This document shows, in pieces, positions 5,891 through 12,234 of a stretch of DNA of 64,000 bases. Location: positions 1,938,519 through 2,002,518 of the forward strand of contig CP166960.1 of the NCBI GenBank assembly GCA_041447175.1, given 5' to 3'. How positions within the stretch are numbered: position 1 is the stretch's first letter; each line of letters begins with the position of its first letter. A program made the position numbers and the translations under genes. Source of the stretch: Candidatus Bathyarchaeia archaeon (GTDB taxonomy: Archaea > Thermoproteota > Bathyarchaeia > Bathyarchaeales > Bathycorpusculaceae). The notes beneath the pieces were generated by a model that saw only the letters and a list, made by a program, of their open reading frames with translations, was not told where the DNA came from and made no database searches.

Positions 5891-5924
5891 GCTGTGTGGA
5901 TAAAGTTTGCTTGGTGAAAGGCGC

Positions 5925-6455
5925 ATGAGTCACGTTGCCAAATCTAAACTTCTTGAAGAGATAATCATAGAACTCCGAAAGAACAAAGTGGAAATTCCAG
6001 CAAACGTCATGACAGACTTAAAATCCGCGCGAACCCTCATCCAAATCGGAAATTCCGAATCCCGCGCAAGAGGCGAAACGGAACCGCAAATTGACCAGTA
6101 TCTTTCTAGTGTGGAAGCTTATGTTATGGCAGAAGCCGACAAGCGGTTGCCGCCTGAAAAAGTGGAAGAATGGCTGGCGGCGTTGGATTTGGCAAGCTGT
6201 AACAGCTGCGTTACGGCTCCGTGCGAAAAAGAAGAGAAGATGCGCCTAATTCCAGGTGTTCCCCGAGACAAAAAGTGGATTCGCGTCGAGCCAATTGAAG
6301 GGTTGCCTGTGGAGAAGCTGGAGCAGATGGCTACGGAGGCAAACCTTGGTTTTCGCCGTGAAGCAGATGGGCACTTAGTGGTCTATGGGGAAGACCAAGC
6401 CGTGAAGGGCTTCATAAAAAAGGCAATTAAGCCCAGTGAAAAAACCACTGCCTAA
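5925..6455 (+). CDS. Archaeal conserved protein, DUF2096-like
   Basis: This 176-residue soluble protein begins MSHVAKSKLLEE. It has an N-terminal helical half with IPANVMTDLKSARTLI and a Cys-containing linker (CNSCVTAPCEKEEK, about residues 90-105). A C-terminal mixed domain ends VYGEDQAVKGFIKKAI. The helical half recalls the archaeal DUF2096 family, whose function is unknown. The Cys-rich linker could bind a metal. The ATG was chosen over an upstream TTG because GGTGAAAGG precedes it. It faces the gasdermin/CHAT operon, converging with it across about 90 bases. Confidence 0.6.
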   Translation: MSHVAKSKLLEEIIIELRKNKVEIPANVMTDLKSARTLIQIGNSESRARGETEPQIDQYLSSVEAYVMAEADKRLPPEKVEEWLAALDLASCNSCVTAPCEKEEKMRLIPGVPRDKKWIRVEPIEGLPVEKLEQMATEANLGFRREADGHLVVYGEDQAVKGFIKKAIKPSEKTTA

Positions 6456-6546: not shown

Positions 6547-7713
6547 TTAGTTCAGCCTCTCGTATGCCGTCCACTGGTTGCGGATGTTTTCAGCCACAGC
6601 TTTGTTGTTCCAGGCCAAAGCATATTGGGGGTCAATGTTTATGGCGTTGGTAAAGTAAGAAATGGCTTGGTTAAGCATGTCAATGTCGTGGCCGAGTTGG
6701 CTCATGTGTGTGAGTGCAAGTCCCTTGTTGTTTAAGGCAGGCACATGCATGGGGTTAACTTTGAGGGCTGCATCAATACATTTTAGGGCTTCCTTGAGCA
6801 AACTGGGGTTCTGGCTGGCAACGTACATGTTGATGTAGCTGAGACCCTTGTTGTTTAAGGCGTCAGCCATTTGAGGGTTAATCTTTAGGGCGGCGTCAAA
6901 ATGTTTTATGGCTTCTTGGTAATTGCCGTAGCTGAAAAAGGTCAATCCTTGCTGGTTCTCAGCCACCGGATTCCCCACAACAGTAGGCGATCCCCCGTCG
7001 TCATCATCTTCTTGTGGTAGTTCACTTCTCTTCACGCGCCGAAAGGTCTGTTTTCTTTTCGGCGTAGGGGCGGGTGTGGCGTCTACTTTTTCAGGAGCAA
7101 GAGTTTCAGCAGCTCCCGTGGAGACGAAGAAGACGTTTTGTGGGTCAACCCCTGGTTTGGTTAGTAACTGGGGCACTTTCTCTTGGTTAAGGTTGGCGAG
7201 GTCAATTTGGTTACATCCCAAATCAAAGGCGTCATGGACACTTCTGCCGTAAGCTAAAGCTTGGTAGAAAGAGCTGGCGAAATTGATGGCGGCTCGGTCG
7301 CCGATGGCTTGGGTCATGCCGATGACGCAGTCAATGTTTTCGGAGATGGCTTTTGCCTGCTGTTCACTAAAACAGGCATTGAGGACCACACATTTGATTG
7401 TGTCTTTGAAAACGCGAAACAGCCTGCCTAAGGCTTTGCTTGGAACAACGCGGCTGTTACCATTGAGGTCTTCAAGGATGATTTCGCTTGCAGGGCTGCC
7501 GTGTCCGCTAAAGTGAACAATGTTGGGCTTGTACCTGAGCAGGTGCCCCTGTAGGTCGTTGAAGCGGACCGCCCACTGCTGCTCCAAGTTGAAGCGGTCC
7601 CGAAATTCAGCACCCCGTAGCGCGTTGTCGATTGAGCGGACCTCTTGGTCTAGGCTAAGGGGGCTGCTGTCTTTGGGGTTAGCAGCCAGAAAAAGGATTT
7701 GAACTTGCTTCAT
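6547..7713 (-). CDS. CHAT-domain caspase-like protease with C-terminal TPRs
   Basis: This 388-residue protein has an N-terminal CHAT (caspase-fold) peptidase domain (about 1-205) and a C-terminal TPR array. The typical opening is ILFLAANPKDSS. The catalytic His is the second one in HFSGHG (residue 71) and the catalytic Cys is in LNACFSEQ (residue 114), so the dyad is intact. A proline- and lysine-rich linker (about 205-245) leads to about three TPRs (about 248-385), with repeats such as NYQEAIKHFDAALKINP. The ATG at 7713 follows GGTGAG; a GTG at 7725 would overlap the gasdermin stop. Translational coupling with the gasdermin-like gene predicts that it cleaves that protein. The TPRs probably sense the trigger or bind a partner, which is inference. 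Confidence 0.88.
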   Translation of the reverse strand: MKQVQILFLAANPKDSSPLSLDQEVRSIDNALRGAEFRDRFNLEQQWAVRFNDLQGHLLRYKPNIVHFSGHGSPASEIILEDLNGNSRVVPSKALGRLFRVFKDTIKCVVLNACFSEQQAKAISENIDCVIGMTQAIGDRAAINFASSFYQALAYGRSVHDAFDLGCNQIDLANLNQEKVPQLLTKPGVDPQNVFFVSTGAAETLAPEKVDATPAPTPKRKQTFRRVKRSELPQEDDDDGGSPTVVGNPVAENQQGLTFFSYGNYQEAIKHFDAALKINPQMADALNNKGLSYINMYVASQNPSLLKEALKCIDAALKVNPMHVPALNNKGLALTHMSQLGHDIDMLNQAISYFTNAINIDPQYALAWNNKAVAENIRNQWTAYERLN

Positions 7714-7717
7714 GCCT

Positions 7718-8512
7718 TCACTCACCTAAAGATACAAACGGCGCTGGAGATATCAACTTAGAACCCCCCACATTCGATGGCCCCCGCATGGGCAGGTCTT
7801 GTTGAGCAGGTTCAATACGGGTGTAACGACCGCGGTCATAAAATAACTGCACAGCTTGGAACCCAAAAACCAGAGGTGTTGCGCCCTCAAAGGTTATTGC
7901 TGAAGAGTTGCCGCCTTGACCTGTAACTTTGACCGTTGGGCTAACAACGTTCTGTATTACAGGAACCTGAATGCCAAGGTCGCCGCCTTTTGAGGATTGG
8001 GGGAAAATCGTGAATTTCTTACTTTTAATCGTTGCCGTAACCACGTAAACCTTGTCGCTGTCAAGCAGTTGCCCAACAAACCGCGAAAAAGGGCTTATGT
8101 CGGCATCACACAAAAACTGGTCCAACTCAGCAACGTCCACGCTGTCTTCTAACACCCCTTCATACTGAAACGCAATTGAATCAGCGTTAGAGAACTTGCT
8201 CTCTAACCCAGCAGTTGAGCCGCCTAAACCCGAAATTATATTCCCCAGAATGGAGAGCCCAAACCCTAAACTAAACTCGCCACTTTTCTTCCCAGAAATG
8301 TTTGCCACAGGGGAATTTTCCATAAGGGTGGGTTGGGGGATGTTGCCTTTTGACTTAAAAACCACGGAGAGCTCGCCTACCCGACTGAGTTCGTTATTTT
8401 TGCTTGCCATCAACTGCAGGGGTTTGATGGTGGCTTTGGGCAGCCGCACCACATTGTAGCCGTAGGATTTGAGCAGGGAAATTAGGGGGTCGCCTGAGAG
8501 AAAACGGAACAT
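7718..8512 (-). CDS. Gasdermin-like pore-forming protein
   Basis: This 264-residue protein resembles bacterial gasdermins. It has an N-terminal DPLISLLKSYGYNVVRLPKA segment followed by a PLQLM turn, a GELSVVFKSKG strand, a hydrophobic SLGFGLSILGNIISGLGG segment (about residues 95-112), and VFGFQAVQLFYDRGRYT near the end. The size and the short tail after residue 230 match bacterial members, which are held inactive by about 20 C-terminal residues. Arg243-Gly244, Leu240 and Asn247 are candidate cut sites. It lacks the N-terminal Cys that is acylated in many bacterial gasdermins. AAGGAG lies 9 bases before the ATG. The CHAT protease gene follows and overlaps or abuts it. By homology, cleavage should release membrane pores that kill the cell. 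The family call is from remembered sequence features and needs a structure prediction. Confidence 0.78.
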   Translation of the reverse strand: MFRFLSGDPLISLLKSYGYNVVRLPKATIKPLQLMASKNNELSRVGELSVVFKSKGNIPQPTLMENSPVANISGKKSGEFSLGFGLSILGNIISGLGGSTAGLESKFSNADSIAFQYEGVLEDSVDVAELDQFLCDADISPFSRFVGQLLDSDKVYVVTATIKSKKFTIFPQSSKGGDLGIQVPVIQNVVSPTVKVTGQGGNSSAITFEGATPLVFGFQAVQLFYDRGRYTRIEPAQQDLPMRGPSNVGGSKLISPAPFVSLGE

Positions 8513-8650
8513 GCTACAAGTCTCCTTGGCAGTTGGGTGTACGCCAGAGGTTACGGTGAGAATCTGACATGGCTTTTTTTATTGGTCTACTTGCTTTTAG
8601 ATTTTTGCATCTTACAAAGAACCCAAAGAAAAAAGCAGCAGCATATTTTG

Positions 8651-9211
8651 CTAGGGCAACTTGAGTTTTGAGATGAACGTTTTCTGCAGTTTGGAGATTT
8701 TTGGGGCTATGACGGCTTGGCAGTAGGGTTCTTTGGGGTGCTTTTTGAAGTAGTCTTTATGGTAGGTTTCGGCAGGATAAAACGTTTGTAGGGGCTCTAC
8801 AGCGGTCACTATGGGTTTGTCAAAGACCTTCTCGGCGGTTAACTCTGCAATCAACTGCTCCGCGGCGGCTTTCTGGTCTGCGTTGCGGTAAAAGATGACA
8901 CTGCGGTATTGAGTGCCTACGTCGGCGCCTTGCCTGTTTAGCTGCGTGGGGTCATGGGTTCCAAAGAAAATCTCCAAAAGCTCCCGAAAACTAACCTCTT
9001 CTGGGTCAAAGGTTATGGTGGCAACTTCCGCGTGGCCCGTTTGCCCCGTGGACACTTGTTCGTAGGTGGGGTTAGGCAAGCTGCCGCCTGCGTAGCCAGG
9101 TTCAACTTTTACTACGCCACGGATCTGCTGGAAGACGGCTTCGGTGCACCAGAAACAGCCTGCACCTAAAGTTACGGCTTCAAAACCTTCAGGTTTAGTA
9201 GCGTCGTTCAT
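8651..9211 (-). CDS. msrA: Peptide methionine-S-sulfoxide reductase
   Basis: This 186-residue MsrA repairs oxidised methionine. The active site GAGCFWCTEAVF has the catalytic Cys at residue 19. GYAGGS, GHAEVATITFDP, and the late TFYPAETYHKDYF segment are all typical. Length is normal for the family. The ATG at 9211 is used; an upstream GTG frame adds 11 residues of no family character. It ends about 140 bases upstream of the gasdermin operon and faces the same way, but it is probably a separate unit. Confidence 0.95.
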   Translation of the reverse strand: MNDATKPEGFEAVTLGAGCFWCTEAVFQQIRGVVKVEPGYAGGSLPNPTYEQVSTGQTGHAEVATITFDPEEVSFRELLEIFFGTHDPTQLNRQGADVGTQYRSVIFYRNADQKAAAEQLIAELTAEKVFDKPIVTAVEPLQTFYPAETYHKDYFKKHPKEPYCQAVIAPKISKLQKTFISKLKLP

Positions 9212-9284
9212 TGTTAATCTCTCAGAAAACTGCTTTAAGTCCACGTTTTATGTAGGGAGAGAGGGCTTTAAACTTGTTTGTAAA

Positions 9285-11604: not shown

Positions 11605-12234
11605 ATGACAAACAACCCCGCCCCCACTGCAGTCTACTGGCTAAACAACAGCCTTTACCTAAACCTAACCAACCAATGCAGCAACAACTGCTGGTTCTGC
11701 TTTCGCAATTTTAAACCCGGCGTAGGCGGCTTCAACCTTAAACTCACCAAAGAACCCACCCTACCCGAAATCACCACCCAGCTCCAGCAGACCCTGCCAA
11801 ACCAGCGTTGGAAGGAGGTTGTGTTCTGCGGCTTTGGTGAACCTACCGCGCGGCTCGATATCCTGCTGGAAACAGCAAGGTGGATAAAAAAGCATCACCC
11901 GCAAATTCCGATTCGGCTGGACACTAACGGACACGGCTACGCCCTTAACCCGGGCAGAAACGTTGCTGAAGAACTTAAAGCCGCAGGGGTTAGCCGAGCC
12001 AGCGTTAGCCTAAACGGACATGACCAAGAGACCTACAGCGAGAACTGCCGCCCCAACATCCCCAACGCGTTCAAGGTAACGGTTGATTTTGTGCAGAAAG
12101 CTAAAGCGGGGGGGCTTGAGGTGGAGGTTTCCGCGGTGAGGATGCCCGAAGTGGACCTTGCAAAGGTTGGGGCAGTGGTGGAAGCTTTAGGGGTGCCCTT
12201 CCGAATCAGGGACTACATTCCATGCTTTTGGTAA
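11605..12234 (+). CDS. TatD-associated type radical SAM protein
   Basis: This 209-residue compact radical SAM protein has the cluster motif CSNNCWFCFRNF near residue 28 and the SAM-binding VVFCGFGEPT motif. IRLDTNGHG and VSLNGHDQETY segments follow. These match the short radical SAM family usually found beside TatD nucleases; no TatD gene is visible here. The function is unknown. GAGGTAAA lies directly before the ATG. The gene stands alone, with a structured non-coding stretch after it. Confidence 0.8.
   Translation: MTNNPAPTAVYWLNNSLYLNLTNQCSNNCWFCFRNFKPGVGGFNLKLTKEPTLPEITTQLQQTLPNQRWKEVVFCGFGEPTARLDILLETARWIKKHHPQIPIRLDTNGHGYALNPGRNVAEELKAAGVSRASVSLNGHDQETYSENCRPNIPNAFKVTVDFVQKAKAGGLEVEVSAVRMPEVDLAKVGAVVEALGVPFRIRDYIPCFW

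Follow-up and report, generated by a model that had tools for sequence, protein, structure and literature searches.

Between a DUF2096-like gene and the peptide methionine sulfoxide reductase gene msrA of a Bathyarchaeia chromosome lie two adjacent minus-strand genes, encoding a prokaryotic gasdermin (bGSDM) and a caspase-like CHAT protease with TPRs; the pair is probably a horizontally acquired two-gene cell-suicide module. Positions below refer to the window, the whole stretch of 64,000 nucleotides that was analysed. Published statements on archaeal gasdermins diverge: they are said to be absent from archaea in PMC11249213 and present in PMC10989679 and PMC12881547, while according to PMC10989679 there is no functional work on gasdermins in archaea, and gasdermin goes unmentioned in the main text of two recent archaeal-defence surveys. 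Because gasdermin-protease clusters have already been reported in archaeal genomes (PMC12881547, PMC9079055), their presence in archaea, although rare, is not without precedent. Two-gene gasdermin-protease units and TPR-CHAT activators have likewise been described, and the kind is known in bacteria.

The gasdermin gene (7718..8512, minus strand) is an intact open reading frame of 264 residues; its ATG has no in-frame start codon upstream and is preceded, 9 nt on the 5′ side, by the Shine-Dalgarno-like sequence AAGGAG (8522..8527, minus strand). A first-pass annotation had proposed a gasdermin here from features that we recovered: the sequence YGYNVVRLPKA at residues 17–27, a Gly-rich stretch (GFGLSILGNIISGLGGSTAG) and a short tail, which extends beyond the final predicted strand. 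Several tests identify the product as a prokaryotic gasdermin. It gave full-length matches above cut-off to the curated gasdermin models of PADLOC (bGSDM, PDLC02986; E=1.1e-84, residues 7–261) and NCBIfam (prok_gasdermin, NF051890; 213.2 bits, curated cut-off 100 bits); a Pfam search of the ORF found no matching model. A phmmer search of the PDB returned the Vitiosangium bGSDM (8sl0/7n51) at E~3e-37, with Runella and Bradyrhizobium structures next. The AlphaFold model, derived from a two-sequence alignment, was weak (mean pLDDT 51, pTM 0.51); when it was searched against the PDB with Foldseek, 8/8 matches with E below 0.001 were bacterial gasdermins, 7n51 being the top match at 9e-15. Since the TM-scores were 0.45 or lower, with a Foldseek score that includes sequence, the fold comparison backs the sequence result and would not stand alone. 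Together, the PDB sequence match and this low-confidence model point to a gasdermin N-domain fold, so that the structural check named in the first-pass annotation as a possible refutation did not refute it.

Characterized bGSDMs are kept inactive by a tail of ~20 residues and their N-domain forms pores once the tail is cut; cleavage follows a Leu or Arg ~20 aa from the C-terminus, and a Gly at P1′ was essential in the tested case (PMC9612521, PMC9079055). By this rule, residues 244–264 (GPSN...APFVSLGE; 7721..7783, minus strand) are the predicted inhibitory C-terminal tail: R243-G244 stands 21 aa from the C-terminus, and our best guess is a cut after R243, between LPMR and GPSN. The tail motif APFV is common to this gasdermin and to the best relative that was found, a Myxococcota gasdermin (L026, genome G721) with 38% identity over 230 aa. 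The N-terminal palmitoylation Cys is absent; the protein begins MFRFLSGDP, with Ser where others have Cys, and its sole Cys is C135. As this residue is carried by ‘the majority’ of bGSDMs and is not universal (PMC9612521), it is not a requirement for bGSDM membership. The Myxococcota relative is also devoid of the N-terminal Cys, so the loss is not assignable to archaeal life, which weakens the idea of an archaeal adaptation.

The missing Cys bears on whether the gasdermin could be an acquired but non-functional relic, expressed and perhaps cleaved, yet incapable of membrane insertion when not palmitoylated or when faced with ether lipids. This possibility draws on the observation that lipid removal reduces pore formation where the lipid occurs (PMC9612521), but palmitoylation mutants still leak liposomes (PMC9079055) and the Cys-less Myxococcota relative shows that the archaeal protein does not stand alone. 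Moreover, both ORFs are intact, the catalytic residues of the protease are kept, and the GC contents of the two genes (0.489 and 0.506) match that of the window (0.491), and it follows that the genes are maintained. We consider a relic quite improbable, and return to the reading of the pair as a suicide module.

The second gene (6547..7713, minus strand, stop included) encodes a caspase-like protease that joins a CHAT domain to C-terminal TPRs and, read from the ATG at 7713, is 388 aa long. An alternative start, GTG 7725, would yield 392 aa and an 8-bp overlap with the gasdermin gene; the ATG is the likelier start because it lies 4 bp downstream of the gasdermin stop and has its own SD-like GGTGAG in front. 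The protein matched Pfam CHAT (PF12770) at 31.1 bits (cut-off 24), Pfam TPR_1 at 58.7 bits in three stretches, and PADLOC chat (PDLC02988) at E=1e-68 over residues 5–387; profile searches thus agreed with the first-pass annotation for gasdermin and CHAT alike, and the PADLOC models matched by the pair have near-consecutive accessions. The CHAT domain aligned to the SAVED-CHAT structure 8tl0 at 2e-18, HFSGHG falling on HFIGHG and LNACFS on LNACCT. The catalytic dyad is therefore in place, at His71 (HFSGHG; codon 7501..7503, minus strand) and Cys114 (NACFS; codon 7372..7374, minus strand), the two residues that had been named from the letters alone and that are correct in ATG 7713 numbering. A CHAT domain with its His/Cys dyad hence adjoins the bGSDM. 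Residues 249–387 (6553..6969, minus strand), a putative sensor or adaptor, contain the three TPRs originally claimed: single-sequence AlphaFold yielded three TPR helix pairs and a capping helix with pLDDT mostly 75–94, and folded the CHAT half without confidence. A second archaeal CHAT protein was seen in the same archaeal family (L030:5074-6087; G065:C4). It comprises 337 aa, is without TPRs or a gasdermin, and its CHAT domain is 48% identical to that of the CHAT-TPR protease; a gene for a large terminase subunit lies ~500 bp upstream of it, and the CHAT protease may be provirus-borne.

Both ORFs are present, intact and adjacent on the minus strand, as first described, and their spacing suggests that they share one promoter. 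The description of the unit as a minimal form needs qualifying: simple pairs of a gasdermin and a protease already make up a recognised class (PMC9612521), and the unit is not specially minimal. No NLR-like ATPase or CARD genes, as in the Lysobacter-type operon, were found beside the pair, whose neighbours are msrA and the DUF2096-like gene.

The archaeal identity of the host, likewise proposed at the outset, is well marked. The genome is one 2.73-Mb contig of the class Bathyarchaeia; a thermosome, MCM and the primase PriS are encoded in the window with the gasdermin-CHAT pair, and the SSU rRNA scored 1472 bits against the archaeal Rfam model and contains the exact 19-nt target of the Bathyarchaeia-specific probe MCG493 (probe sequence from PMC10477458). 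To the left of the pair, the DUF2096-like gene (5907..6455, plus strand) is kept in 7/7 genomes of the genus; to the right, msrA (8651..9244, minus strand) is present in 5/7. In two congeners, G004 and G003, the DUF2096-like gene adjoins msrA in the same arrangement without the cassette, and outer neighbours are kept at these empty sites as well (MBL-rhodanese in G004, radical SAM in G003). The cassette was therefore gained here or lost elsewhere; gain by horizontal transfer is the simpler reading, and we infer that the transfer was directed into this lineage. No integration signature emerged when the surroundings of the cassette were searched for repeats, the gasdermin found no match in phages, plasmids or IMG/VR, and the CHAT protein found none in IMG/VR. 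A single scan of genome contigs yielded one relative, too few to trace the donor lineage.

Bacterial contamination of the archaeal assembly would offer another account of a gasdermin in this genome, and the only other gasdermin-like match in the class (1/257 genomes; G028, contig C200, E=3e-25) does look like contamination. Here, however, the one contig of 2.73 Mb that carries the locus also has archaeal genes for rRNA and replication, the genes on both sides of the cassette are conserved within the genus, and the same junction, minus the cassette, exists in two congeners; contamination is thereby largely refuted, and we hold it to be extremely improbable. The G028 match itself (L025) is a gasdermin of divergent sequence, which PADLOC bGSDM recognises at E=8e-26 and whose N-terminal MKCTDP includes a cysteine. 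Its contig is 4.5 kb long and also encodes GatB fragments and a LuxR-like protein, and the MAG, made up of 620 contigs, has 8% contamination; we treated the match as probable bacterial contamination, not as a second archaeal gasdermin. Weak matches in two further genomes of the phylum (G218 and G401, among 398 genomes) are false positives, surrounded as they are by genes for histidine biosynthesis.

Comparison with known systems places the putative suicide module among several relatives and analogues. Bacterial gasdermin systems (Johnson et al. 2022, as summarised in PMC9079055 and PMC9612521) possess the same ~260-aa gasdermin, short tail and adjoining caspase-like protease, and the Runella, Bradyrhizobium, Vitiosangium and Lysobacter bGSDMs are homologous precedents for the mechanism (PMC9079055, PMC9612521); the Vitiosangium bGSDM is 33% identical to the Bathyarchaeia gasdermin. 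Unlike these systems, the Bathyarchaeia pair resides on an archaeal chromosome, its gasdermin is without the N-terminal Cys, and its protease is a compact N-terminal CHAT followed by three TPRs. CHAT is one of the kinds of protease known from gasdermin loci, and in a two-gene cluster of the fungus Podospora anserina the activator of the gasdermin is a CHAT protein that bears TPRs (PMC12881547). That cluster belongs to a eukaryotic, allorecognition setting and is likened to the Bathyarchaeia pair by description, not sequence. The structure 8tl0 has the same CHAT domain and catalytic motifs, but a SAVED nucleotide-sensing domain where the Bathyarchaeia protease has TPRs. The TPR-CHAT of Craspase (type III-E CRISPR) shows the same pairing of CHAT and TPRs (PMC9729208); by comparison, no gRAMP/Cas7-11 gene was seen beside the Bathyarchaeia pair, its TPRs are C-terminal, and the expected substrate is the gasdermin.

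A mechanistic model can be proposed by homology. The gasdermin would be made in an autoinhibited form, and the TPRs would take part in sensing a trigger, probably virus infection; most known pairs stay silent until they are triggered. Once activated, CHAT would cut near the gasdermin C-terminus, most plausibly after R243; the freed N-terminal domain would oligomerise and open large pores in the cytoplasmic membrane, which would kill or arrest the cell before virus release. Archaeal membranes are built of isoprenoid ether lipids, unlike the bilayers in which gasdermins were tested, and this counts against the suicide-module reading, as do the low-confidence gasdermin model and the missing palmitoylation Cys. 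We assign somewhat less than an even chance to the tentative proposal that the pair works as a pyroptosis-like system in an archaeon, its gasdermin opening pores, without being lipid-modified, in a membrane of isoprenoid ether lipids, possibly tetraethers. If true, neither palmitoylation nor a bilayer of ester lipids is required for the gasdermin mechanism, and archaea use a bacterial and eukaryotic suicide module.

The pair may alternatively be real and active without serving virus defence, acting instead in controlled lysis, content release or conflict with kin or competitors. Two lines of evidence lean this way: i) the bGSDM operons described so far vary in make-up, and for most of them the trigger is unknown (PMC9612521), and ii) no obvious defence island surrounds the locus, as no other defence genes were found among ten neighbours bar two marginal matches, a result that also counts against the defence-module reading. 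Yet the single bGSDM operon challenged with phage in PMC9079055 was antiphage, and patchy presence with empty sites is typical of defence genes; we judge a non-defence role unlikely and favour cell suicide upon infection. Near the pair, a short radical SAM protein (11605-12234, plus strand) gave a marginal match to prokaryotic viperin (E=3.4e-5); it is a conserved neighbour in the genus and hence probably not a viperin.

With a single-contig chromosome, empty sites in congeners and both genes intact, the locus is a clean archaeal case that bears on the spread of gasdermins between domains, and it makes testable whether a gasdermin that is not palmitoylated can function in the ether-lipid membranes of archaea.

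Three bGSDM loci were also seen in bacteria. In the Myxococcota locus (L026:5009-9447), the Cys-less bGSDM with its APFV tail motif is followed by a metallophosphoesterase gene and then by a gene for a 784-aa CHAT protein; the Bathyarchaeia pair shares the Cys absence, the motif and the downstream CHAT gene, but the two CHAT proteins are without significant similarity and the metallophosphoesterase gene intervenes only in the former. A Labilithrix sp. MAG (L005:4995-8889) encodes a bGSDM with an N-terminal Cys, then a 742-aa protein with a C-terminal CHAT, and a Peptidase_C14 caspase on the opposite strand. On a plasmid of the cyanobacterium Gloeothece (NC_014533.1; L027:4001-4957), PADLOC identifies as a bGSDM (E=6.6e-64) the product of a gene that is annotated ‘hypothetical protein’; the annotation shows no adjacent protease, and transposases lie nearby.
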